A DNA stretch of 64,000 nucleotides from Candidatus Frackibacter sp. WG13 (lineage in GTDB: Bacteria > Bacillota > Halanaerobiia > Halobacteroidales > Acetohalobiaceae), in assembly GCF_900114655.1 (NCBI RefSeq), contig NZ_FOTT01000014.1:1-64000 (forward strand), given 5' to 3'. Below are positions 22,225-38,532 of the stretch, one piece after another (position 1 is the first letter of the stretch; every line of letters starts with the position of its first letter). A program made the translations under genes and the position numbers. The notes beneath the pieces are model-generated. The model saw only the letters and a program-made list of their open reading frames with translations. It was not told the DNA's origin and did no database searches.

Positions 22225-22311
22225 TCTAGAAATATATTAGTGAAAGATGTTACAAGGATATTATAAGAATGTAAAAGTTAAGGTTATCCTAAGAATAAAT
22301 GGGTGGTATAT

Positions 22312-24009
22312 ATGATTAAAAAGAAAAGACTAGGAGATATCTTAGTTGAAGTTGGCTTTATTACCGAAGAAGAACTGCAAAAGGCTTTAGAGAAACAAAA
22401 AGGTGGTAATAAGCGTTTAGGTGCAGTTTTAAAAGAGATGAAGCTAGTTACTGAACAGGATGTTATGGAAGCTCTAGAATACCAGTTAGGGATACCTCAT
22501 GTTAATTTAAAACAGCATATTATTGATCCAGATGTCATTAATATGGTTCCACAAGCATTAGCTGAAAGGCATAAGGCGATTCCAATTAAAAGACGAGGAG
22601 ATAACTTGACAGTAGCTATGGCAGATCCTTTAGACGTGATGGCTATCGATGATATTCGTCTTAAGACCGGGTGTGAAGTAATGCCGGTGATCGCTAGTGA
22701 ATCAGATGTGGACTATGCTATTGAACAGTATTTTGGTAGTGAGGATGTAGTTAATGAGTTTGTCCAAGATATTAATGCAAAGGTTGGTAGTGATGATAGC
22801 TCAGATATAGAAGTTGATCGTTTACGACAGATGGTAGAAGAAGCGCCAGTAGTAAGATTAGTAAATAATATTATTACTGAAGGTATTAAATTACGGGCTA
22901 GTGATATTCATATTGAACCACAAGAAGAAGAGATTAGAGTAAGATATAGAGTAGATGGTATCTTACATAATGAGATGACTATTCCTAAGCATACTCATTC
23001 TGCTTTAGTCTCTAGAATTAAGATTATGGCTGATTTAGATATAGCCGAAAGAAGGTTGCCGCAAGATGGTAGAGTGCAGATGGTAGTGAAAGATAGAGAG
23101 GTAGACTTACGAGTTTCTGTCTTACCTACAGTAGAAGGAGAAAAAGTTGTTATTAGAATTTTAGATAAGAGTAACTTAATGTTAAGTATCGATAAGCTAG
23201 GATTCTTACCAGAGCACCAATCTTCTTTTGAAAAGATGATTAAGCAACCACATGGTATGGTATTAATAACAGGGCCAACCGGTAGTGGAAAGACGACGAC
23301 TCTTTATTCTGCTTTGAGCTCTTTGGATACAGAAGATCAGAATATTATTACAGTAGAAGATCCAGTAGAATACAGATTAGAAGGGATTAATCAGGTACAG
23401 ACTAACCCTAAAGCAGGACTTACATTTGCTAGTGGATTACGTTCAATACTTCGTCAGGACCCTGATATTGTAATGGTTGGGGAGATTCGTGATAAGGAGA
23501 CTGCTAATATTGCTATCCATGCTGCTTTAACTGGGCACTTAGTATTGAGTACATTACACACCAATGAAGCAGCAGGGGCTTTATCAAGGTTAATAGATAT
23601 GGGAATCGAACCATTTTTAGTGGCTTCCTCAGTATTAGGCGTTGTTGCTCAACGACTAGTACGAACTGTATGTGCTGAATGTAAGACTCATAATGAAGAT
23701 GCTTTAGTTGATACTAATTTAGAAAAATATTTAGGTAGTGGTCGAGATAGCATTGAGCTTTATCATGGTGATGGTTGTAGATTTTGTAATAATACTGGTT
23801 ATCACGGCAGAACAGCTATTCATGAAATTTTAGAAGTAACTCCTAAGATTAAGAGGTTAGTAGTTAATAAAGCATCAGCAGTCGATATTGAAGAAGCAGC
23901 TAAAGAAGAAGGAATGATTGCTTTAGAAACTTGTGGCTTAAAGAAAGCAAACCAAGGACTTACAACTATTGAAGAAGTAATGAGAGTAACTAAAGTTCAG
24001 GTAGGCTAG
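22312..24009 (+). CDS. pilB: Type IV pilus assembly ATPase
   Basis: About 565 aa, GspE/PilB family. The N-terminal MshEN/T2SSE_N domain (about 1-150) is followed by the ATPase core with Walker A GPTGSGKTTT (about 321-330), the Asp box EDPVEYRLEGINQVQ, Walker B PDIVMVGEIRD, the His box HLVLSTLHTNEA, and two CxxC pairs (CAEC, CRFC) that bind zinc as in PilB. It powers pilus extension. ATG 22312 is chosen with GGGTGG before it; GTG 22303 overlaps that site. It is the first gene of the pil locus. Confidence 0.95.
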   Translation: MIKKKRLGDILVEVGFITEEELQKALEKQKGGNKRLGAVLKEMKLVTEQDVMEALEYQLGIPHVNLKQHIIDPDVINMVPQALAERHKAIPIKRRGDNLTVAMADPLDVMAIDDIRLKTGCEVMPVIASESDVDYAIEQYFGSEDVVNEFVQDINAKVGSDDSSDIEVDRLRQMVEEAPVVRLVNNIITEGIKLRASDIHIEPQEEEIRVRYRVDGILHNEMTIPKHTHSALVSRIKIMADLDIAERRLPQDGRVQMVVKDREVDLRVSVLPTVEGEKVVIRILDKSNLMLSIDKLGFLPEHQSSFEKMIKQPHGMVLITGPTGSGKTTTLYSALSSLDTEDQNIITVEDPVEYRLEGINQVQTNPKAGLTFASGLRSILRQDPDIVMVGEIRDKETANIAIHAALTGHLVLSTLHTNEAAGALSRLIDMGIEPFLVASSVLGVVAQRLVRTVCAECKTHNEDALVDTNLEKYLGSGRDSIELYHGDGCRFCNNTGYHGRTAIHEILEVTPKIKRLVVNKASAVDIEEAAKEEGMIALETCGLKKANQGLTTIEEVMRVTKVQVG

Positions 24010-24020
24010 GGGGTAGTTAA

Positions 24021-25067
24021 ATGGAATTGGACAACCTATTAAGAGAAGGAATTAAACTAGGAGCTTCAGATATTCATTTGACAGTTGGAGTTGAGCCAAC
24101 GTTGCGAGTTAATGGTGGTCTTAAAAAGATAGGAGAAGAAGTACTAAGTTCTAATCAGATTGATGGATTAATTAAAGGGATGATGAACGATAAGGTTGAA
24201 GAAGAGTTTAGAGAAAGAGGGGAAGCTGATTTTGCCTATCACTTAGATAATTATCGCTTTCGAGTTAATGCTTTTCAACAAAGAGGAGATGCGGCAGCCG
24301 TTTTGCGAATAATTCCTAATGAGATTTTAAGCTTGAATGCATTAGGTTTGCCAAAAGAACTAAAAGATTTAGCATTAACACCGAGGGGATTATTCTTAGT
24401 TACAGGACCTACTGGCAGTGGTAAATCTACTACTTTAGCTTCAATGATTGATTTGATTAATAGAAGTAAAGATAAACATATTATTACTTTAGAAGACCCA
24501 ATTGAATATGTGCATCAACATAAGAAGAGTATTGTTAATCAGAGAGAGGTTGGAGAAGACACAGAAAACTTTGCTAATGGATTAAGGGCTGCCTTAAGAC
24601 AGGATCCAGATGTTATTTTAGTTGGTGAGATGAGAGATTTAGAAACGATTTCTACAGCAATTACAGCTGCAGAAACAGGACATTTAGTCTTTGCTACATT
24701 ACATACTAATAGTGCAGCAGAGACTATTGATCGAATTATCAATGTCTTTCCACCTCATCAGCAAGAACAGGTTAAGACTCAGTTAGCTCTAACCTTAAAA
24801 GGAGTCTTATCACAGCAGCTACTACCGACAATTGATGATTTAGGTCGAGCTGCAGCTACTGAGCTTTTGGTTGTAAATTCTGCAGTTAGTAATTTAGTTA
24901 GAGAAGGAAAGACTCATCAGTTAGAATCTATAATGCAGACCAGTAAAGAAGAAGGAATGCATACTATGGATTATTCCTTACGAGATCTATATCGCTCAGG
25001 TAAGATAAGTCGTGACGAAGCATTAAGTAAAGCAATTAATATCCAGAGTTTAAAGCGAATGATTTAA
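24021..25067 (+). CDS. pilT: Pilus retraction ATPase
   Basis: A 348-aa PilT-family motor that depolymerises the pilus and drives twitching. It opens with LREGIKLGASDIHLTVG, then has Walker A GPTGSGKSTT (about 129-138), the EDPIEYVH Asp box, RQDPDVILVGEMRD Walker B and HLVFATLHTNSAAETIDRII. It lacks the zinc CxxC pairs of PilB and has the normal PilT length. It begins 12 bp after pilB. The presence of both motors implies dynamic, retractable pili. Confidence 0.95.
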   Translation: MELDNLLREGIKLGASDIHLTVGVEPTLRVNGGLKKIGEEVLSSNQIDGLIKGMMNDKVEEEFRERGEADFAYHLDNYRFRVNAFQQRGDAAAVLRIIPNEILSLNALGLPKELKDLALTPRGLFLVTGPTGSGKSTTLASMIDLINRSKDKHIITLEDPIEYVHQHKKSIVNQREVGEDTENFANGLRAALRQDPDVILVGEMRDLETISTAITAAETGHLVFATLHTNSAAETIDRIINVFPPHQQEQVKTQLALTLKGVLSQQLLPTIDDLGRAAATELLVVNSAVSNLVREGKTHQLESIMQTSKEEGMHTMDYSLRDLYRSGKISRDEALSKAINIQSLKRMI

Positions 25068-25095
25068 GAAAATTATAATGAAGGGAGGGGAAGCT

Positions 25096-26307
25096 ATGGC
25101 GCAGATATTTCACTATAAAGCTAGAGATAAAGATGGTGACCTTTTAGAAGGGGCTATCGAAGCTGAAACGAGAGATATAGTAGTCGACAGGCTGAAAGGA
25201 AAAGGTTACTTTGTTACTTCGATTGAAGCCGAAGAAGAAAGTAGTGATTTAGGTGAGCAATTAAAGCAGTTAAAGAAAGTAAAGTTGCAGGATTTAGCTC
25301 TTTTTTGTCGTCAATTTGCTACTATGATTAATTCCGGACTTTCGTTAGTTAGGTCATTAGATATTCTAGTCGAACAGACAGATCATCCTAAATTAAAAGA
25401 TGCAATTATGTCGGTACAAGAGAATGTAGAAAGTGGTATGTCGTTATCTAAAGCTTTAGAACAGGAAAAGAAGGTCTTTCCTCAGTTATTTATCAGTATG
25501 GTAGAGGCTGGAGAAGCCGGTGGTATCTTAGATGATGTTTTGTTAGAGATGGCTGATCATTTTGAAAATGAGAATGATATGAAACAGAAAGTGATTTCAG
25601 CATTAGCTTATCCAGTAGTAATCTCTTTAGTAGCAATTGGTGTAGTGGTCTTCTTAGTAACAGTCATTCTACCTACTTTTGTTGATATCTTTGCTGGCAT
25701 GGATCAGCAACTTCCTCTACCTACAAGGCTGTTATTAGGGTTTAGTAATCTATTTTCTAGTTATTGGTATGTAGTGGTTGGTTTAGTAGCAGTAATAGCA
25801 TTTGGAATTTATCGTTACTATCAGACAGATAAGGGTAGGAGAAAGATAGATTGGATTCTACTAAAGACTCCGCTCTTTGGTGATTTGATTACTAAGATAT
25901 CGATTGTTAGGTTTAGTAGAACCTTAGGAGTATTGATTCAGAGTGGTGTCTCTATTCTAGATGGCTTAGAGGTAGTAAGTAAGGTGGTTTCTAATAGTAT
26001 AATATCTGATAAGATTAGAGAATCACGCAAGAGTATCAGTTCAGGCGATAGTATAGTAAGTCCACTTCGTCAAAGCAAAGTCTTTCCTCAGATGGTACTA
26101 CAGATGATAAGAATTGGAGAAGAGACCGGTAGCTTAGATGAAATGCTTGCTAAGATTGCTCAATTTTATGATCAAGAGGTTGAGCATAAAGTAGAGAGTA
26201 TGGTTTCATTAATTGAACCAGCACTGATTTTGGTTTTAGGTGTAGTAGTGGGGAGTATTGTAGTTTCTATGATGTTGCCGATGTTTAATATGATGAGCGG
26301 GTTTTAG
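25096..26307 (+). CDS. pilC: Type IV pilus inner-membrane platform protein
   Basis: About 403 aa, GspF/PilC family. Two T2SSF domains are visible: LALFCRQFATMINSGLSLVRSLD (about residues 70-92) and its repeat FSRTLGVLIQSGVSILDGLE (about 280-299), each followed by membrane helices. The C-terminal LVLGVVVGSIVVSMMLPMF helix is typical. It anchors PilB/PilT and forms the assembly base. ATG 25096 is preceded by AGGGAGGGG; an earlier ATG at 25078 lies before that site. Confidence 0.95.
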   Translation: MAQIFHYKARDKDGDLLEGAIEAETRDIVVDRLKGKGYFVTSIEAEEESSDLGEQLKQLKKVKLQDLALFCRQFATMINSGLSLVRSLDILVEQTDHPKLKDAIMSVQENVESGMSLSKALEQEKKVFPQLFISMVEAGEAGGILDDVLLEMADHFENENDMKQKVISALAYPVVISLVAIGVVVFLVTVILPTFVDIFAGMDQQLPLPTRLLLGFSNLFSSYWYVVVGLVAVIAFGIYRYYQTDKGRRKIDWILLKTPLFGDLITKISIVRFSRTLGVLIQSGVSILDGLEVVSKVVSNSIISDKIRESRKSISSGDSIVSPLRQSKVFPQMVLQMIRIGEETGSLDEMLAKIAQFYDQEVEHKVESMVSLIEPALILVLGVVVGSIVVSMMLPMFNMMSGF

Positions 26308-26639: not shown

Positions 26640-27095
26640 ATGATTAGTAAGTTAAGGGAAAGAATTTGTAATGTGGCAAAGAGAGAAGAAGGTTTTACGT
26701 TAATTGAGTTAATGATTGTTATTGCTGTGTTGGGTATTTTGGCTGGTATTGCTATTCCTAAGTTTAGTGGGGTACAGGATAAGGCAAAAGATGCAAATAT
26801 TACATCAGTAGCTGGTACTATTAGAAGTGCTATGGAAATGTATAATGCTGAGAATGGCAATTATCCAGCTAGTGTTAGTGGAAGTACTGCTAAAGATAAA
26901 TATAACGATTTAGATATCACTTTAGACACAGTTGAACTTCCGGATATTAGTGATGTTATGAGTACTTTTACTTATACAGGTGATAGTGATGGTGATGGCA
27001 CAAATGATGATTATAAAATTACAATAAAAAGTTCAGCAACAGAGACTACTTATACTATTGAACCAAGTGGTGTAACAGAAACACCAGCACCATAA
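26640..27095 (+). CDS. pilA: Major type IV pilin (GspG/PilA-like)
   Basis: A 151-aa prepilin. A basic leader ends at Gly, and the cleavage motif EEG|FTLIELMIVIAVLGILAG carries Glu at +5 of the mature protein and the long hydrophobic N-helix that packs the pilus core. The rest is a soluble head with YNAENGNYPASV, as in GspG-like pilins, and an Asp-rich loop (GDSDGDGTND) that may bind calcium. There is no C-terminal disulfide pair. A strong terminator follows, fitting a highly expressed major subunit. Confidence 0.9.
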   Translation: MISKLRERICNVAKREEGFTLIELMIVIAVLGILAGIAIPKFSGVQDKAKDANITSVAGTIRSAMEMYNAENGNYPASVSGSTAKDKYNDLDITLDTVELPDISDVMSTFTYTGDSDGDGTNDDYKITIKSSATETTYTIEPSGVTETPAP

Positions 27096-27244: not shown

Positions 27245-28000
27245 GTGAAAAGGTTGATTTTTTTTCAATTTACAGTATTTATCTACGGACTACTAATCGG
27301 TAGCTTTTTAAACGTAGTGATCTATCGTTTACCAAATGATGAATCAATAATTTTTCCTCGTTCACATTGTCCTAATTGTGAAACTAAATTAGGAGTAATT
27401 GATCTTATTCCAATTATTAGCTTCGTTTTTAATAAAGGAAGATGTCGTTATTGTCGGACTAAGATCTCTTGGCAATATCCATTAGTAGAATTATTAACCG
27501 GAATCTTTCTTACAATTTTATTTATACAATATCAATTTAGTGTAAACTTTTGGATTTATGCATTTTTAACTATATTATTAATGACTTGTACTTTTATTGA
27601 TTATAAACATAAAATCATACCAAATAAAATTACATATCCAGGAATTTTAATCGGACTTATACTTAGTATATTATTTAATCATATTACTTTACAATCAGCT
27701 TTATTAGGGATCTTAATTCCCGGAGGCTTTTTATTATTAGTGGCTATTATTACAAAAGGCGGTATGGGTATTGGTGATGTGAAGTTTGCAGCAATGATCG
27801 GAACATATATCGGAGCAGAATATACTTTAATTGGCATTTTTATTGGTTCGCTAGTAGGTTCTGTTTTAGGATTAGGGTTAATTGGCTTGGGTCTTAAGGA
27901 TAGGAAATCGAGGATTCCTTTTGGACCATTGATTGCGTTGGGGAATACTTTAATGTTGTTTTGGGGAGAAGAGGTTGTTGGTTGGTATCTTCAAATTTAA
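27245..28000 (+). CDS. pilD: Prepilin peptidase / N-methyltransferase
   Basis: A 251-aa polytopic membrane aspartyl protease that cleaves pilin leaders after Gly and methylates the new N-terminus. The N-terminal cytoplasmic loop has two zinc-type pairs (CPNC, CRYC). The catalytic Asp residues are in TFIDYKHKIIPN and in the GxGD box GGMGIGDVKFAAMIG. GSFLNVVIYRLP at the start is typical. The start is GTG 27245 or TTG 27254; the latter has GGGTG at better spacing. Confidence 0.93.
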   Translation: MKRLIFFQFTVFIYGLLIGSFLNVVIYRLPNDESIIFPRSHCPNCETKLGVIDLIPIISFVFNKGRCRYCRTKISWQYPLVELLTGIFLTILFIQYQFSVNFWIYAFLTILLMTCTFIDYKHKIIPNKITYPGILIGLILSILFNHITLQSALLGILIPGGFLLLVAIITKGGMGIGDVKFAAMIGTYIGAEYTLIGIFIGSLVGSVLGLGLIGLGLKDRKSRIPFGPLIALGNTLMLFWGEEVVGWYLQI

Positions 28001-29654: not shown

Positions 29655-30803
29655 ATGTTTAAACAAGAAAGAGGTTCTACAATTGTCTTGGCATTGGTGG
29701 TAACAACAGTCTTATCGATAATGGTTGCTGGTTCTATGAGTAGGACAAATAATGAAGTGAAAATGACAACTCACAATGAAAATCGGGTTAAGGCGGGTTA
29801 CTTAGCAGAAGCAGGGATTAAGAAAGTAACAAAGAGTTTGAATACTGCTATTAGTGATGGAAATTTAACAGTTGAAAATGTTGATAGTTTTCAGTTGACT
29901 GAAAATGGCAGATTACAAAGTGGAAGCTATAATGTAGTAATTAGCCAGAAGGTTAGTCATACTAATAATCTTGATCGTACATATAAATTAAAGGCTACCG
30001 GTACAAGTAAAGATGGTACAGAAAATGTTTTAACAGCTAAAGTTAAAGTAAATAATAATTTAGATGATATTTTTAAAAAGACGGTTGCTACTGGGGGACA
30101 GATAAGAGATAAGCAACGTATCGATATTAAAGGCAAAGTAGTTGAAAATGCAAATAATGATTCTGATATTACAATACCTACTTTTGATTTTACAGGATTT
30201 CAAAATAAAGCAGATAATAATTATACTACGACAAGTTTTAAGACTACATATGGTTTATATGATGGAGAAGAGGACGGAGAAGAGGATGGAAGTAAAGTAG
30301 ATGTTAGTTTGCCTGGAGGAATTACTTATGTTGATGTACAATCAGATGATGGTGATGATGACGATGATGATGACGAGGGTGAATTAGAAATAGATTTAGG
30401 TGGGGGAAGTATTTCAGGTCCTAGTCCTGATAATCCAGCAGTATTAGTAGTCAATGGTGAATTAGAATTTGAAGACATTAATCAATTAAAAAATGTTTAT
30501 GTCATAGTAAAAGGTGAATTTGAGGTTGAAACGGATGACGAGGACGATAATAGTAGTACAGGCTTAACGGCTAAGAATACTTTTATATATGCAAAGGGTG
30601 ATGACGATGATGGAATAGAATTTGAAGAGATAGAAAGTATAGATTATTCAGGGGCAATAATGACATCAAGAGATGTTGAATTTGATGAAGATCCATCTGG
30701 AACTATTAAGCATAATAAGATTAGGATAGATGCGTTATATGATGGTTTAGATGAGCAACAAGGTAAATTAACAGATGCAACTATAGTCTTTTGGGGAGAA
30801 TAA
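29655..30803 (+). CDS. PilX-like pilus protein with acidic repeats
   Basis: 382 aa. The N-terminus RGSTIVLALVVTTVLSIMVAGSMSRTNNE has a pilin-like helix but no Gly-x4-Glu signal, as in PilX-N proteins (GspK-like position in the operon). YLAEAGIKKV is also typical. The middle has acidic tracts (GEEDGEEDG and a run of seven Asp near residues 235-241), and a later stretch is again Asp/Glu-rich. These may bind calcium or reflect adaptation to salt. Paralogous to the gene at 35650. It follows the PilW-like gene by 11 bp. Confidence 0.75.
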   Translation: MFKQERGSTIVLALVVTTVLSIMVAGSMSRTNNEVKMTTHNENRVKAGYLAEAGIKKVTKSLNTAISDGNLTVENVDSFQLTENGRLQSGSYNVVISQKVSHTNNLDRTYKLKATGTSKDGTENVLTAKVKVNNNLDDIFKKTVATGGQIRDKQRIDIKGKVVENANNDSDITIPTFDFTGFQNKADNNYTTTSFKTTYGLYDGEEDGEEDGSKVDVSLPGGITYVDVQSDDGDDDDDDDEGELEIDLGGGSISGPSPDNPAVLVVNGELEFEDINQLKNVYVIVKGEFEVETDDEDDNSSTGLTAKNTFIYAKGDDDDGIEFEEIESIDYSGAIMTSRDVEFDEDPSGTIKHNKIRIDALYDGLDEQQGKLTDATIVFWGE

Positions 30804-30839: not shown

Positions 30840-31904
30840 ATGGGATTAATCAATAAACTAAAGAACTTATTTAGCAGTGAAAATATAATAGGGATAGATA
30901 TAGGGGATAGCTTAATTAAGTTAGTAGAAGCTGAAACTAAACAAAATAAGATAATACTTAATAATTTAGCAGTAGGCGATACTCCAAAAGAAGCTGTAGT
31001 CAAAGGACAGATAGAGGATGTAGAAGCTCTAACCGCAAAGATTAAATCATTACTAGATAATAATAACTTTGCATCAACCAAAGTAACAACTGCCATTAGT
31101 GGGGAGCAAGTAATTATTAGAAATGTTGAGATTCCTAATATGCCCGAGGAAGAGATAGGTGAAGCGGTTAGGTGGGAAGCCAAAGAACAGATTCCGATGC
31201 CTATAGATGAAGCAGTTTTAGATTATGAGATTTCTAAACATAAAGCGGATGGTGGTTACGAAGTGATGCTAGTGGCTGTAAATCGTGATACAATCAATAG
31301 ATATTTGGAGTTATTTAAGAAGTTAGATTTAGAGCCAATAGCCATTGAGATTGAACCAACAGCGATTATTAGGGGGATTCGAAAGTTATACCCTGAACAA
31401 ACCATAGCGTTATTGGATATGGGAGCCCAGACTACTACTATTTCGGTTTTTAGTAATGGGCAACTCTTATTCACAAGGACGATAGGAATTGCTGGTCAAG
31501 ATATTACGCAAGAGATAGTGGAGAATTATGAATTAAATTTAGAGGAAGCAGAAGAGTATAAAAGGGATAATAATCTATTTGTAGATGCTAATTTAAATTT
31601 AATTATTAGAAATTTAACGACTGCGATTTATCGTTCTTTAGATTATTTTCAAGTTAAATATAAGAATTATGACATAGAAAAGATGGTTTTAGCCGGTGGG
31701 GGAAGTAAATTAATCGGTTTTGATACTCATTTAAGTAATGAATTTGGTATAGAAGTAATACCGTTAAATCCGTTGTCTAATATAGAATCAGAAGTTGAAA
31801 GGTTGAATAGTAAAGAGTTAGCAGAAGTAATTCAACTATTAGGTGTAAGTATTGGTTTGGCTTTAAGAGAGGAGGATGAAGATGATAAATCTATTGCCTC
31901 CTGA
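30840..31904 (+). CDS. pilM: Type IV pilus assembly protein PilM
   Basis: A 354-aa actin-like (FtsA/PilM) protein. NIIGIDIGDSLIKLVE (about 14-29) is the first phosphate loop, ALLDMGAQTTTISVFSNGQLLF the second, and VLAGGGSKLIGFDTHL the adenosine motif. PilM is cytoplasmic and binds the N-terminus of PilN. GAGGTGAGAGG precedes ATG 30840. The pilN start lies inside the end of this gene. Confidence 0.92.
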   Translation: MGLINKLKNLFSSENIIGIDIGDSLIKLVEAETKQNKIILNNLAVGDTPKEAVVKGQIEDVEALTAKIKSLLDNNNFASTKVTTAISGEQVIIRNVEIPNMPEEEIGEAVRWEAKEQIPMPIDEAVLDYEISKHKADGGYEVMLVAVNRDTINRYLELFKKLDLEPIAIEIEPTAIIRGIRKLYPEQTIALLDMGAQTTTISVFSNGQLLFTRTIGIAGQDITQEIVENYELNLEEAEEYKRDNNLFVDANLNLIIRNLTTAIYRSLDYFQVKYKNYDIEKMVLAGGGSKLIGFDTHLSNEFGIEVIPLNPLSNIESEVERLNSKELAEVIQLLGVSIGLALREEDEDDKSIAS

Positions 31905-32457
31905 GTACCAAGAAGAAGGTGGAGTAAATATAGATAAGATCTTAGTAGGAATCTTAATCTTCTGTTTGCTACTGATTCCTACCTCTTATTATCTTAAGTT
32001 AGTATTCCAAACTAAAGAAGTTGAGAAGAGACTAACAATTGTAGAGAAGAATTTATCCAAGTTAAATCAAGAAACTAAACATTTAGAGCAACTAGAGAAT
32101 AATTATAAACAGGCTAAAAAAGAGTTAAAAACTCAGATGGAATTAGTTGAGGTCCCAATAAGGTGGAAGACTATATTACAAGAATTAAAAGGGGTAATGA
32201 ATAATAAAAGTTGGGTTGAAGATTTTAGTATTTATAATCATAATCAGTTTAAGATGATGGGGTATACTTTGGAGCGTCAAAAATTAACAGAAATTATTAA
32301 CCGACTTAAAGACTCACCAAATTTTAATAATGTTTCTATTGATTTTATGAGGAAGAAAGAATTATCAGTAACAGGTTATAAGAAGGTAAGGGTAACTTAT
32401 TATCAAATAAACGGCATAATTGGCAATAATGAAGGTGATAACTATGAGCTTAAATAG
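31882..32457 (+). CDS. pilN: Type IV pilus assembly protein PilN
   Basis: About 191 aa. It starts MINLLPPEYQEE, the conserved PilN tail that docks on PilM, then has one membrane helix (about residues 14-36), a coiled coil, and an alpha/beta domain. ATG 31882 is chosen because GAGGAGG lies 6-7 bases before it; ATG 31876 abuts that site. It overlaps pilM by 23 bp, indicating coupled expression. Confidence 0.9.
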   Translation: MINLLPPEYQEEGGVNIDKILVGILIFCLLLIPTSYYLKLVFQTKEVEKRLTIVEKNLSKLNQETKHLEQLENNYKQAKKELKTQMELVEVPIRWKTILQELKGVMNNKSWVEDFSIYNHNQFKMMGYTLERQKLTEIINRLKDSPNFNNVSIDFMRKKELSVTGYKKVRVTYYQINGIIGNNEGDNYELK

Positions 32458-33007
32458 TCTACAAGCAAGAGAAAAGAAGTTATTAATAATTAGTTTAGTG
32501 TTAATTTTAGGCGTAGGATTTTATTACTATCTCTATCAACCTCAAGTCAAAGCTTTACAGCAAAAAAAGAAGCAGATTAAAGCAGGTATTCAAGAATTAA
32601 AATTGAAAAAGATTAAGTTATTGAGGAAAGAGAAGGTAGAGAAAAATTATCACTTATTACAGCAGGAATTAAATAAAGAAAAACAGAAGTTTTTAGATTT
32701 AGAAGATAAGACTCGGCTCATTATGGATTTAAGTGATGCAGCAATTGAGAATAAGCTTAATTTAATAAGTACTGCTCCGCAACCAATTATTAAAGAAGGT
32801 ATTTATTTTCGAATTCCAGTCAAAATAAATCTAAGCGGAAAATATAGTAATATTATTGCTTTTGCAGCTGATATAGAGAGTTTAGGCTATTTAACTCGTG
32901 TAAAAAGTCTAAATATTTCTTCTAAACTAACACCTACTAACGAAGTGCAAGTAGAAATGAAATTAACTAGTTATGCCTTGGATAAAAGTAGTGGTGATCA
33001 ACAATGA
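32444..33007 (+). CDS. pilO: Type IV pilus assembly protein PilO
   Basis: About 187 aa: a short cytoplasmic part (SLNSLQAREKKLL), one helix (LIISLVLILGVGFYYYLY), a Lys-rich coiled coil and a PilO-type domain ending with IPVKINLSGKYSNIIAFAADIESLGYLTRV. It pairs with PilN in the alignment complex. ATG 32444 has AAGGTG before it; other in-frame starts at 32420 and 32429 lack one. It overlaps the end of pilN. Confidence 0.88.
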   Translation: MSLNSLQAREKKLLIISLVLILGVGFYYYLYQPQVKALQQKKKQIKAGIQELKLKKIKLLRKEKVEKNYHLLQQELNKEKQKFLDLEDKTRLIMDLSDAAIENKLNLISTAPQPIIKEGIYFRIPVKINLSGKYSNIIAFAADIESLGYLTRVKSLNISSKLTPTNEVQVEMKLTSYALDKSSGDQQ

Positions 33008-33639
33008 AAAAGAAGTCTAGTAGTTTTTCATTAGGAAAGGGAAGATTAGTATTAATTATTATCTTAATTTTGATTTCTGTTGGTTTTAGTGGCTTTATGT
33101 CTTACCAAATCTTAAATATAACAGATAGTGGTGAAGAATTGGCTCAATTTAGAGCAAAAATAAATCAGATTGTTAAAACTAAAGATAAAAAGGTTACAGT
33201 AAATAAGGAATTGAAGGAAATATTAAGCAAGAAAGAACAAGTGGCAGCGGTCTTTACTTACAATAATGATTATAGTACTACTAATCCTTTTAAGTCATTG
33301 TTAGAAAAGAAACCAGTGTTGAAGGTTGAGGATAAGGATAAGGTTGAGGCCGAGGTTAAGGCAAAACCTAAACCTAAATCTAAACCTAAATCTAAACCTG
33401 AACCTGAACCTAAGCCTAAGAGGCCTGATATTAAGGTTATAGGATTAGTGGGTAATGAGACTAATAAAAGAGCTTTTTTAGAATTTAATGGTTCAGAAAG
33501 TTATATGGTTCGGGAAGGACAAGTTATTAACGGTTTAGTAGTTAAGAAGATAACTAGTCATGAGATAATTATTGCTAAGGAAGGTACAGAGTTTTCTTAT
33601 CATTGTGGAGGTGACAGTTGTGAAAATATCGACCTTTAA
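33004..33639 (+). CDS. PilP/GspC-like pilus protein with Lys/Pro/Glu repeat linker
   Basis: 211 aa: an N-terminal anchor helix (about residues 14-36), a linker of about 35 residues made only of K, P, E, S, V, A and D (about 106-140), and a C-terminal beta-rich domain with AFLEFNGSESYMVREGQVING as in PilP/GspC homology regions. These link PilN-PilO to the secretin. The linker is encoded by GGTTGAGG-like and CCTAAACC-like simple repeats of the same type as found between genes here. ATGA overlap with pilO. Confidence 0.75.
   Translation: MKKKSSSFSLGKGRLVLIIILILISVGFSGFMSYQILNITDSGEELAQFRAKINQIVKTKDKKVTVNKELKEILSKKEQVAAVFTYNNDYSTTNPFKSLLEKKPVLKVEDKDKVEAEVKAKPKPKSKPKSKPEPEPKPKRPDIKVIGLVGNETNKRAFLEFNGSESYMVREGQVINGLVVKKITSHEIIIAKEGTEFSYHCGGDSCENIDL
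33320..33425. repeat. Simple-repeat tract inside the PilP-like gene
   Basis: GGTTGAGGATAAGG-type units (33320-33361) are followed by CCTAAACC/CCTGAACC-type units (33366-33420), roughly inverted to each other. The same words occur at 19049-19078, 19124-19140, 20071-20106 and 39641-39660. Confidence 0.8.
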
Positions 33640-35464
33640 AAGGAAGAAGAAGTTTATAGTAATAAGCTTAATTGTATTAATAATGAACTTATTTTCAGTT
33701 AATGTTATGGCCGAGACTTTACCAGGAGCAGATACTAAAGTTAATTTAAATCTTACTGGAGTCAGTTTAAGAGATGCTTTTCGAGCGTTAGCTGAAGTAG
33801 CTGAAATGAATATCATTACTGATAATTCGGTGCAAGGGAATGTAACTATTAATTTACAGGATATTACATTTTTAGAAGCTGTAGAGCTTTTAGCCAAGAC
33901 TAATGGTCTATCTTATCGGATTGTTGGTAATACCGTATTAGTAGCTCCACCTAGTAGATTAAAAGCAGGCTTTTCAGAAAAGGTTACACGAGTATTTAAA
34001 TTAATGAATTCAGAACCTGCAGAAGTAAAGGAAAGTTTAAATTTATTAGTAAAAGATAGTGCTATTCGAGTCGATGATCGTACTAATAGCTTAGTAATTA
34101 CTGCTTATAAGAGTCAGATACCACAGATAGAAGAAGTTATTGATACCTTAGACCAATCTAAGAAACAGGTTGTTTTACAAGCTAGAATTGAAGAAATCTC
34201 CCGTGATGAATTAGAAAAGATGGGGATAGATTGGAGTTTTGATACATTAAAATTAATTGGCAATGATGGTAAGGCTATGAAAACACTTGAAATGTTTGGT
34301 GAAAGTGTTGATAATGCTACAGTAAGATACTCATCAATTTTGGATTTATTAGAGTCTAATAATAAAGCTGATTTATTAGCTAATCCTCAGATAGCTACCA
34401 TTGATGGGAAAACAGCTAGTATTAAGATAGGAGATCAAGTTCCTATTGTTACAACTGACGTTGATTCAGATGGTAGTAAAAGTTCAACAGTAGAATTTAA
34501 AGATGTAGGAATTAATTTGAAGATTACTCCTAGAGTTACTAATAATAATAAAATAGTTGTAAAAGTTAGGCCGGAAGTGAGCACTGTTACAGGTTATACT
34601 GATACTACTCCTGAATATCCAATTGTAAGTACTAGAACTGCTGAAACTAATGTCAGAATTCAAGATGGGAAGACATTTGCTATTGGTGGATTGATCAAAG
34701 ATGAAGAGATTAAAGCAATGTCTAAAGTTCCATTATTAAGTGAACTACCAATCCTAGGAAAACTATTTCAAAGTGAAAGCACTGAAATAGCTAAGAGAGA
34801 GTTAATTATCTTTATCACTCCTAAGATTATAAGTGATGGTGAAGAAGTTGATACTCAGCTTAAAAATGAATTTAAATCAACAGAGGAAGAGTATAATAAT
34901 GAAAGCAATGTTAAAGAGGGACAGGACAATAATTCTCAAAATAATCTAATAGATAAAAAGGGATTAAAGAATACTAAAATAGTTCCATTTGAATATAAGG
35001 TAAAAGGAACAGACACTTTCTGGAGCATATCTAAACAATTTAAGATTTCATTTGCTGCTATAATGGAGCATAATGGTATTAAGTATATGAGACCATTATC
35101 AGCCGGAGAAGTATTGACAATTCCTGTTCCAGCAAATAACTATTATAAAGTCAAAGAAGGAGATACAGTAAAAGATATTGCTGAAGAGTATAATATCTTT
35201 ACACAGCCTATTAGACAGATTAATAGCATTAAATCTTTAGATGGAAAAGCAGGTATGAAACTGGTCTTGCCAGTGGAAGTTAAGGAAGAAGACAGATGTG
35301 ATTTTAATGAAGAAAATAAAGTTGATGAAGTTAAAGCAAGTAAGGATACAGAAATAGAATCTAAGGACAAAAATAAAAAGAATAAGGGTGAAAAGAGTAA
35401 TAATGAAGAAGTAAAGAAACAAGATGAAGCAGAGAGCTCAACCACTAAGCATAGTAGTTCGTGA
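33620..35464 (+). CDS. pilQ: Type IV pilus secretin with C-terminal LysM repeats
   Basis: About 614 aa. A signal/anchor helix (about 10-30) precedes an STN/N0 domain (VNLNLTGVSLRDAFRALAEV), an N1/NolW domain (VFKLMNSEPAEVKESLNLL), and the secretin barrel with LLANPQIATIDGKTASIKIG and VSTRTAETNVRIQDGKTFA. After about residue 410 come two LysM-like units (about 456-505 and 510-554) and a charged tail. Secretins form gated outer-membrane pores, so this implies a diderm cell. LysM would grip peptidoglycan. GTG 33620 follows GGAGGTG at proper spacing. Confidence 0.9.
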   Translation: MKISTFKRKKKFIVISLIVLIMNLFSVNVMAETLPGADTKVNLNLTGVSLRDAFRALAEVAEMNIITDNSVQGNVTINLQDITFLEAVELLAKTNGLSYRIVGNTVLVAPPSRLKAGFSEKVTRVFKLMNSEPAEVKESLNLLVKDSAIRVDDRTNSLVITAYKSQIPQIEEVIDTLDQSKKQVVLQARIEEISRDELEKMGIDWSFDTLKLIGNDGKAMKTLEMFGESVDNATVRYSSILDLLESNNKADLLANPQIATIDGKTASIKIGDQVPIVTTDVDSDGSKSSTVEFKDVGINLKITPRVTNNNKIVVKVRPEVSTVTGYTDTTPEYPIVSTRTAETNVRIQDGKTFAIGGLIKDEEIKAMSKVPLLSELPILGKLFQSESTEIAKRELIIFITPKIISDGEEVDTQLKNEFKSTEEEYNNESNVKEGQDNNSQNNLIDKKGLKNTKIVPFEYKVKGTDTFWSISKQFKISFAAIMEHNGIKYMRPLSAGEVLTIPVPANNYYKVKEGDTVKDIAEEYNIFTQPIRQINSIKSLDGKAGMKLVLPVEVKEEDRCDFNEENKVDEVKASKDTEIESKDKNKKNKGEKSNNEEVKKQDEAESSTTKHSSS

Positions 35465-35649: not shown

Positions 35650-36699
35650 ATGTCAAAATATGAAGAAGGTTCGGTGCTTCTATTATCATTATTGATAATG
35701 ACTGTTTTATTTGTAATGGTTGCAGGTGCTTTAAGATCAGTAAATAATGAGATTAAAATAAGTAGTTATAATCAAGATAGAGTTAAGGCTAACTATATAG
35801 CAGAAGCGGGATTAGAGTTTGCTAAAGCTAAAGTTAGTGATAATAATATATGGAATAATAATAAGATAATCAAAGATTTCGGGGGCGGAAGGTTTACGGT
35901 AACTAAGAGTTTAACTAATAATCAATTAGATATTGTTAGTGAAGCAACATATAAAGAGATGACTAAAAAATTATCTTCCACTTATTTGTATAACTCAGAT
36001 ATTAATCAGACTTTCAAGTATTCGTTAGCTGCCAGAGGAGTTATTAACGTTAATAATAAAGCAACAATTATCGGAAATAGTCAAGGTGGAGATTTATATT
36101 CAAATGGGAATATTATTTTAGGAAATAATTCTACTTATTTTGATTGTAATATTAAGAGGAATCAAGCTGACGAATTCTTTTTAGATTTTGATATTATTGA
36201 ATTGAAAGAGAAAGCAGAAGTTACTATAGCCAGTAATAATAATAGTCCAACAATCGATGGCTCGAAGGTTACATATAGTGATCATGATTTGAACTTAGCA
36301 AATAATTCAATTATTAACGGGAATGGAATTTTAATAGTCAATGGAGATTTAACGATTGAGAATGAAGTTAAAATTAATGTTGATGAAGATAACTCTGGGC
36401 AATTTAATAGTAAGTCTTTCGTAATAATCGTTACTGGTAATATAACTATTAAGAATAAATTTAATATGCGGGGATTACTATATTCCCAAGGTAGCATGAA
36501 AGACATAGACGGTAGTGCTGATATAGGTAATAAAGCGAAGGTTAGGGGAAGCATAATAGCCAATGAAGGTATAGAGATTAAAAACAAATTAGAACTTACA
36601 TATGATAACTCTTATTTGGATACTTTCAGTTCTCATGGGATCAACTTAGGAGATGTAGTTAAAGAGTTAAGATTAATTAATTTTAGACCTCTTTTTTAA
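35650..36699 (+). CDS. Second PilX-like pilus-associated protein
   Basis: 349 aa. Its N-terminus EEGSVLLLSLLIMTVLFVMVAGALRSVNNEIK and YIAEAGLEFAKAKV match the PilX-like protein at 29655, so the two are paralogues. There is no Gly-x4-Glu cleavage site. The C-terminal two-thirds is Asn-rich and beta-helical in appearance (repeated GNxxI / NNS segments), like surface bactofilin-type or polymer-forming folds. AAGGAGGTGATAG precedes ATG 35650. It lies between two terminators, so it is a separate transcription unit. Confidence 0.7.
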   Translation: MSKYEEGSVLLLSLLIMTVLFVMVAGALRSVNNEIKISSYNQDRVKANYIAEAGLEFAKAKVSDNNIWNNNKIIKDFGGGRFTVTKSLTNNQLDIVSEATYKEMTKKLSSTYLYNSDINQTFKYSLAARGVINVNNKATIIGNSQGGDLYSNGNIILGNNSTYFDCNIKRNQADEFFLDFDIIELKEKAEVTIASNNNSPTIDGSKVTYSDHDLNLANNSIINGNGILIVNGDLTIENEVKINVDEDNSGQFNSKSFVIIVTGNITIKNKFNMRGLLYSQGSMKDIDGSADIGNKAKVRGSIIANEGIEIKNKLELTYDNSYLDTFSSHGINLGDVVKELRLINFRPLF

Positions 36700-36823: not shown

Positions 36824-38023
36824 ATGTTTAGATATCTAACAACAGGTGAATCACACGGAAAAGCAGTAACTGCAGTAATTGAAGGAGTACCAGCTAATTT
36901 AGAGATAAGACCAGATGATATCAATAAAGATTTAGCTCGCAGACAAGGGGGATATGGTCGCGGAGGAAGAATGAAGGTAGAGACAGACCAAGTCGAAATT
37001 TTGTCAGGTATTAGAGCAAAGAAGACTTTAGGTAGTCCGATTACATTTCAGATTAATAATAAAGATTGGGAGAATTGGCAGGAAATCTTGTCTCCGACAG
37101 GGGAAGGCGGTTATCATCAAGATGAGGTAGTGATTAAGAAGGACACTAAAATCAAACAGGTTAGGCCAAAAGTGACTAAGCCTCGACCTGGACATGCTGA
37201 TCTAGCTGGAAGTTTAAAATATAATCAAGAAGATATTAGAAATATATTAGAAAGGGCTAGTGCTAGAGAGACAGTAGCAAGAGTAGCGGTTGGAGCGGTA
37301 GCTAAGAAGTTCTTGGAAGAGTTTGGGATTAAAGTAATTAGCCATGTAGTTGAATTAGGTGGTGTGAAAGCAGATAGCCAAGATTTAGACTACAAACAGA
37401 TTGAGATGAAGGTAGATAATTCATTAGTTAGAACCCTTGACCAAGAAGCAGAAGAAGCAATGATAGCGAGGATAAAAGAAGCTAAAAAAGATGGCGATTC
37501 TTTAGGTGGGGTCTTTGAAGTAATAACTACTAAGCTACCAGTAGGCTTAGGTAGTCATGTACAATGGGATCGCAAGTTAGATGGAAGGTTAGCTCAGGCA
37601 TTAATGAGTATTCAAGCGATTAAAGGAGTTGAAGTTGGTCTAGGCTTTGAAGCAGCTAGAAGACCTGGCTCACAAGTCCATGATGAGATATATTATGAGG
37701 ATGGATTCAAACATAAGAGTAATAATGCTGGTGGATTAGAAGGTGGAATGACTAACGGTGAAGCTTTAAGGGTCAAAGCAGCGATGAAACCGATTCCAAC
37801 CCTCTATCAACCGTTAGAATCAGTAGACTTAGCTACCAAAGAGAAATTTAAAGCTAGTGTAGAACGTTCCGATGTAACGGCAGTACCAGCAGCTGGAGTA
37901 GTTGGTGAAGCAGTAGTAGCTATTGAATTAGCTAAAGCTTGGTTAGAAAAGTTTGGTGGCGATAGTATAGAAGAGGTTAAGCGTAATTATCAGAGTTACT
38001 TAAAATACTTAAAACAGAGGTAA
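36824..38023 (+). CDS. aroC: Chorismate synthase
   Basis: 399 aa. It starts [23 protein letters not shown], then has [37 protein letters not shown] and [15 protein letters not shown], all standard for AroC. It converts 5-enolpyruvylshikimate 3-phosphate to chorismate with reduced FMN. GGAGTGAG precedes ATG 36824. First of a tight aroC-K-B-Q run. Confidence 0.97.
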
Positions 38024-38028
38024 TAGTA

Positions 38029-38532
38029 ATGAAGAATATAATATTAATTGGATTTATGGGAACTGGGAAGAGTACAGTAGGTAAGAGGTTAGCAGATGAA
38101 TTAGGGTTAAAGTTTATAGATTCTGATGAAGTAATTAAAGAAAGTGCTGGTTCTGAAATAGGTGAAATATTTGCTACCAAAGGTGAAGCGTACTTTCGTG
38201 ATTTAGAAACGGAAGTAATTGCAGATTTAGGTCAAAAGAGTGATTTAGTAATCTCAACCGGTGGTGGGGCAGTACTTAGAGAGAAGAATGTAGAACTTTT
38301 AAAAGAACAAGGAATCGTTATCTTACTTAAAGCAGAACCAGAAGTTATTTTAGAGAGAGTCAGAGGAACGGATCGACCTTTATTGGCTGTGGCTGATCCG
38401 ATAAAGGAAATCAAGAAGTTACTCACTAAACGCAAGAGTTATTATGATATTACTAAGCATAAGATTGATACTTCGAACTTAGAGGTTGATGAAGTTGTAA
38501 ATAGAATCAAAGAGATTATGGATAATACATAG
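38029..38532 (+). CDS. aroK: Shikimate kinase
   Basis: 167 aa. Walker A GFMGTGKSTVGKRLA (about 6-20), DSDEVI with the substrate-binding Asp, EAYFRDLETEVI, the STGGGAVLRE block and a TDRPLL lid motif. It phosphorylates shikimate at O3. It begins 5 bp after the aroC stop. Confidence 0.96.
   Translation: MKNIILIGFMGTGKSTVGKRLADELGLKFIDSDEVIKESAGSEIGEIFATKGEAYFRDLETEVIADLGQKSDLVISTGGGAVLREKNVELLKEQGIVILLKAEPEVILERVRGTDRPLLAVADPIKEIKKLLTKRKSYYDITKHKIDTSNLEVDEVVNRIKEIMDNT

Follow-up and report, generated by a model that had tools for sequence, protein, structure and literature searches.

A pilus gene cluster ending in pilQ

The window, by which we mean the whole stretch of 64,000 nucleotides analyzed here, contains a pilus gene cluster in the order pilB, pilT, pilC, pilin, pilD-like gene, minor pilins, pilM, pilN, pilO, pilP-like gene and pilQ; a PilX-like gene, aroC and aroK come next. 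Encoded on the forward strand are a PilB-like assembly ATPase with T2SSE and MshEN matches in Pfam (22303-24009), a PilT-family retraction ATPase (24021-25067; TIGR01420, 491 bits against a cut-off of 319), a PilC-like platform protein with two Pfam T2SSF matches (25078-26307), a major pilin-like protein with the prepilin motif GFTLIEL in its sequence (26640-27095), and a prepilin peptidase-like protein, named as PilD from its sequence and from homologs in sister pilus loci (27245-28000). The same strand then encodes PilM (30840-31904; PilM_2, 9.5e-57, and TIGR01175 above its cut-off), PilN (31876-32457; PF05137, 26.4 bits, cut-off 22.8), PilO (32420-33007; PF04350, 7.6e-13), a PilP-like protein (33004-33639) and PilQ (33620-35464). 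The PilP-like assignment draws on position and on a C-terminal stretch resembling the PilP/GspB homology region, with all matches below cut-off (T2SSB, E 0.007; pilP_fam, E 8.5e-6, 26.8 bits against 34.65). Downstream, still on the forward strand, a PilX_N-like/DUF7305 protein recognized by Pfam (35650-36699) separates pilQ from aroC (36824-38023) and aroK (38029-38532), which were named from sequence and together span 36824-38532. Another PilX_N-like protein, at 29655-30803, contains a very acidic low-complexity stretch (DDGDDDDDDDEGELEID).

By context the secretin gene is the pilQ of a type IVa pilus: it stands at the end of a pilMNOPQ array, in which only the pilP-like gene scores below cut-offs, together with genes for PilB, PilT and PilC. 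The NCBIfam PilQ model (TIGR02515) gives the protein 232 bits, below a cut-off of 284 that is a threshold of the model and not a test of function, and the GspD model scores it equally. The pilus assignment thus rests on context, namely PilT, PilM and the synteny with aro. The equal scores would also suit a secretin that belongs to a type II secretion system (T2SS), a reading we consider very improbable, as PilT and PilM are both above their cut-offs and aroC-aroK adjoins pilQ as in the classical pilMNOPQ-aro locus, a gene order known from proteobacteria. The same genome encodes a second secretin (L024:1057-2370, G000:C22) with T2SS-T3SS_pil_N and BON-like parts, which is Tad-type by its architecture and has no LysM. 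Halanaerobacter and Orenia-type genomes have second pilus or T2SS-like loci (L051, L056, L058 and L060) with a short PilM and no pilT match in the stretch read.

A predicted LysM pair follows the secretin domain

The pilQ gene starts with GTG and encodes 614 amino acids. A signal peptide region of about residues 1-31 (33620-33712), modeled as a helix at 2-24, is followed by an N0 or STN domain (33737-33949; strands and helices at residues 40-109 of the model), an N1 or Secretin_N domain (33986-34168) and the secretin pore domain (34346-34831). Pfam places all three above cut-off (STN, residues 64-110; Secretin_N, 123-183; Secretin, PF00263, 243-404 with 169 bits). These matches and the surrounding pilus cluster bear out an earlier sequence-only reading that had proposed a PilQ secretin here. 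Beyond the pore, a 54-amino acid linker (34832-34993) leads to two stretches that match LysM in Pfam with 63.9 bits (E 1.3e-17; cut-off 20.9), LysM 1 at residues 459-502 (34994-35125) and LysM 2 at about 508-551 (35141-35272). Sequence matches in the PDB are to PilQ and GspD over the first 440 residues and to LysM proteins over residues 459-553.

In the full-length AlphaFold model, residues 454-549 form two beta-alpha-alpha-beta units. Foldseek matched this model to PilQ and GspD, with V. cholerae PilQ (6w6m) as the best match; confidence in its secretin part is modest (pLDDT about 60-80, parts lower). The LysM tail modeled alone reached a pLDDT of 94.9 and a pTM of 0.82, and its best Foldseek matches (4uz2/4uz3) are the paired LysM domains of an endopeptidase from T. 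thermophilus. Thus, on its pore domain, N-domains and Foldseek matches, the protein is a member of the secretin superfamily, and its tail, above the Pfam cut-off, is predicted to adopt the beta-alpha-alpha-beta LysM fold. The sequence-only reading had described two LysM-like units after the secretin domain and had named structure prediction as a check; both the profile match and the high-confidence model agree with it. A chance LysM-like motif is ruled out by Pfam, by the fold and by ten orthologs, and an artefact of sequence or reading frame by the same architecture in independently sequenced genomes.

Pairwise identity among the orthologs is 52% in the secretin domain, 43% in LysM 1 and 41% in LysM 2, and falls to 10% in the linker, which varies from 14 to 54 amino acids. 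A linker that varies freely while its flanks are constrained is consistent with a tether. The protein ends in a charged tail (about residues 554-614; 35279-35461) that the model draws as a low-confidence helix. This tail, also pointed out in the sequence-only reading, is real, but among the ten LysM-bearing orthologs the part after LysM is long (63 amino acids) only in the window PilQ and in G004, the others having 4-15 amino acids, and by this comparison it does not belong to the conserved architecture.

The organism is a predicted diderm spore former

A search for outer-membrane genes, proposed as a check on the sequence-only reading, found BamA, TamB, OmpH/Skp, LpxD, LpxA, LpxB and LpxK together with LpxC in one cluster of the window genome. 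The cluster also holds an MsbA-like transporter and KdsB, KdsA, KdsD and KdsC, the last four assigned from sequence only, and the flagellar L-ring gene flgH lies near it. Each of the order's 13 genomes has LpxC, and Omp85 occurs in 12 of 12 genomes tested, including f25 and distant carriers of LysM-bearing PilQs. The window itself encodes SpoIIIAA, SpoIIIAB and SpoIIIAE above their NCBIfam cut-offs and SpoIIIAG just below, as expected from the earlier mention of spoIIIA. The presumed fit with the diderm Firmicutes likewise holds, the relatives being Halanaerobiales/Halobacteroidaceae with outer-membrane genes. With BamA and lipid A genes on one side and spoIIIA genes on the other, the organism is well supported as an LPS diderm spore former, sporulation itself being predicted. 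The LPS outer membrane of this group has been published (Antunes 2016, PMC5007114), and the same study reports PilQ in all Halanaerobiales, with LysM not mentioned.

LysM and SPOR domains share one C-terminal slot

We read 19 PilQ-type secretins in 13 genomes of the order, where the relatives include Halanaerobacter jeridensis, Orenia metallireducens, Halonatronum saccharophilum and Natroniella species. Such a survey of secretin domain order had been suggested along with the claim that LysM is unusually placed. A C-terminal LysM pair was present in 10 of the 19 proteins (8 of 13 genomes), SPOR in the same place in three, a broken SPOR end in one, and a disordered tail only in five. The placement is indeed unusual against N-terminal AMIN domains, but it is not peculiar to one genome and is the commonest state in the order. 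The PilQs with neither domain (G001, G002, G003, G008 and G009b) indicate that the domain is not essential for the pilus in this group. Where SPOR follows the secretin domain, in the slot held by LysM in the window PilQ, it scores 52.8 bits (L028:1570-3138), 26.4 bits (L013:1237-2838) and 52.6 bits (L010:1207-2670) against a cut-off of 21.

Pfam found AMIN in none of the PilQs scanned, neither in the window protein nor in its relatives. That the model overlooked the domain is ruled out, as it matches elsewhere in every one of the order's 13 genomes. Two AMIN ORFs were read in the window genome, and by their sequence both have C-termini that resemble amidases. PilQ in this lineage appears to carry its wall-binding function at the back, not at the front.

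In a tree built on the secretin core, with the tail left out, the PilQs from second loci form one clade (support 100/100), with LysM in G010b, SPOR in G005c and G012a, and a SPOR end broken by a frameshift in G011b. LysM and SPOR, to judge from this phylogeny, replace each other at one orthologous second locus. The slot must have switched between LysM, SPOR and neither at least nine times, with gains and losses indistinguishable because the tree is unrooted. Natroniella acetigena has a 127-amino acid ORF between pilO and pilQ (L064:8557-8940) with a SPOR match just over cut-off; it sits where N. sulfidigena has a pilQ-SPOR gene, and looks like the remnant of a lost pilQ-SPOR copy.

Outside the order, LysM after the pore exceeds the Pfam cut-off in G187, G389, a Halothermothrix sp., a Halanaerobiaceae MAG and the Bacillota families f25 and f97; it is just over the cut-off in G329 and was recognized by a local profile only in L106, L111 and L138. 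Secretins were present in 103 of 398 sampled Bacillota genomes. Among 60 further secretins picked by hand from that list, a non-random choice, five had C-terminal LysM and none had SPOR; one of the five, L214 (same contig as L138), was matched by a profile containing its own sequence. The aroC-aroK pair adjoins pilQ in the window and in sister genomes, and also in f25 and in Halanaerobiales, both H. orenii-type and others; this common neighborhood makes it likely that they are one and the same locus. The C-terminal slot may be old and may have been lost repeatedly. We hold only tentatively, and with some doubt, the wider view that PilQ in outer-membrane Bacillota (Halanaerobiia with f25 and f97) has long had a peptidoglycan-binding slot at its C-terminus, one that is tied to pilQ-aroC-aroK, has switched between LysM and SPOR and has repeatedly been lost. 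Such a slot would anchor the pilus pore in a second and independent way, from the side of the outer membrane, and would mark ancestral diderm envelopes.

Proposed anchoring of the pilus pore to peptidoglycan

We think it probable that the window protein serves as the type IV pilus secretin PilQ of a spore former with an LPS outer membrane (Halanaerobiales/Halobacteroidales), and that its LysM pairs anchor the pore to peptidoglycan from the outer-membrane end. PilQ would be exported by its signal peptide, and 12-15 subunits would form a ring in the outer membrane, with N0 docking to the PilMNO complex through its PilP-like protein. Past the barrel, the end of the chain would lie on the periplasmic side, in the position where T2SS secretins have the C-terminal S domain that binds pilotin at the inner leaflet (PMC9239104). 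With one LysM pair on a flexible linker per subunit, each ring would bear 24-30 LysM domains, whose binding to glycan strands would fasten the pore to peptidoglycan at its outer-membrane end, resist the force of retraction, and perhaps guide insertion or localization. Denuded peptidoglycan, which has few stem peptides, is bound by AMIN, SPOR and LysM alike, and in P. aeruginosa the AMIN domain of PilQ binds peptidoglycan and is needed to localize the machine (PMC5285504); TsaP supplies LysM in trans (PMC9239104). It would follow that LysM pairs, arranged in a ring beneath the outer membrane, hold the pore to the wall, a task that elsewhere falls to the N-terminal AMIN domains of PilQ and to TsaP. 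The proposal of the sequence-only reading, that LysM could anchor the pore from the other end, is strengthened by SPOR in the same place in relatives; the slot is modular, holding two LysM domains, SPOR or nothing.

The SPOR-containing relatives also bear on a different role, in which the LysM pair serves mainly to place the pilus machine at poles or division sites, by recognizing denuded glycan, and is not a mechanical anchor. SPOR is a domain that targets septal peptidoglycan, and the P. aeruginosa machine is localized by the AMIN domain of PilQ and the LysM of FimV (PMC5285504). However, LysM is not specific to septal peptidoglycan, and it is LysM, not SPOR, that occupies most of the filled slots in the order. 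We therefore regard localization as the main role as possible but rather unlikely, and it is in any case compatible with anchoring.

The tail sits in the position of the S domain, and in P. aeruginosa FimV promotes PilQ assembly in a LysM-dependent way (PMC5285504), so the LysM contacts might instead help the oligomer to assemble or to insert into the outer membrane, as a built-in pilotin that replaces a separate pilotin and S domain. The unconserved linker, a LysM fold nearest to glycan binders, and the swap with the unrelated SPOR fold, which points to peptidoglycan as the common ligand, make this improbable. Least probable of all is an outward-facing LysM pair that binds a surface glycan (S-layer, capsule, or spore or exopolysaccharide polymer): LysM binds GlcNAc polymers generally and is known here from its fold alone, but the C-termini of T2SS secretins are at the inner leaflet, the site of pilotin binding (PMC9239104), and peptidoglycan-binding SPOR fills the same slot.

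Comparison with known secretins

The window protein resembles the PilQs of the type IVa pili of P. aeruginosa, V. cholerae, M. xanthus and Neisseria in its STN, Secretin_N and Secretin domains, the pilMNOP-Q gene order and the outer-membrane pore. Known type IVa PilQs carry zero to three N-terminal AMIN domains (197 proteobacterial secretins, PMC7545093), whereas the window PilQ lacks AMIN, a domain that is common but not obligatory in this class, and has two C-terminal LysM domains. In LspD, the Legionella T2SS secretin with SPOR, a peptidoglycan-binding domain is likewise fused to a secretin, but it is N-terminal, before N0 (PMC6617341, PMC9239104), whereas in relatives of the window PilQ SPOR follows the pore. 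The S domain of GspD is also a C-terminal extension past the secretin barrel, but it is a short pilotin-binding segment where the window tail has a predicted peptidoglycan-binding fold. TsaP, a separate LysM protein with a FlgT-like C-terminal part, also couples the PilQ pore to peptidoglycan through LysM; it acts in trans, whereas the LysM pair of the window PilQ is in cis, in every secretin subunit. No TsaP-like gene was seen among the LysM ORFs read in the window genome, judged by their appearance; those other than pilQ look like M23 or multi-LysM proteins and resemble cell-wall proteins.

Denise et al. (2019, PMC6668835) described the secretins of six systems in outer-membrane Firmicutes as having no distinctive domain architecture, a statement that our data for this group contradict. 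Our literature search found no published secretin with C-terminal LysM, which does not prove absence from the literature. The C-terminal wall-binding domains suggest that this lineage has its own means of fastening the pilus machine to the wall. LysM, SPOR or neither at one position of orthologous pores forms a natural domain-swap series for testing how trans-envelope machines are anchored to peptidoglycan, and the slot adds a trait to the debate on outer-membrane retention or loss in Firmicutes.

Other C-terminal features of related secretins

Several Halanaerobium-type secretins (L217, L218, L219 and L215) share a terminal motif like YQDLTAAELEAILNK, and L108 and L116 have a similar motif in the linker that precedes LysM; it is possibly a pilotin-type binding site. 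In family f25, a large protein of 1052-1094 amino acids (L176:904-4062 and L177:993-4277) with its own C-terminal LysM pair, found by Pfam in L177 and by a local profile in L176, is encoded just before the LysM-secretin, in which the pore domain is recognized weakly or not at all. Other Omnitrophota loci (L149-L175), only some of them tested, have long tails similar to that of L143:4404-6395, an Omnitrophota protein in which a TonB_C-like domain (29 bits in Pfam) comes after the Secretin domain.
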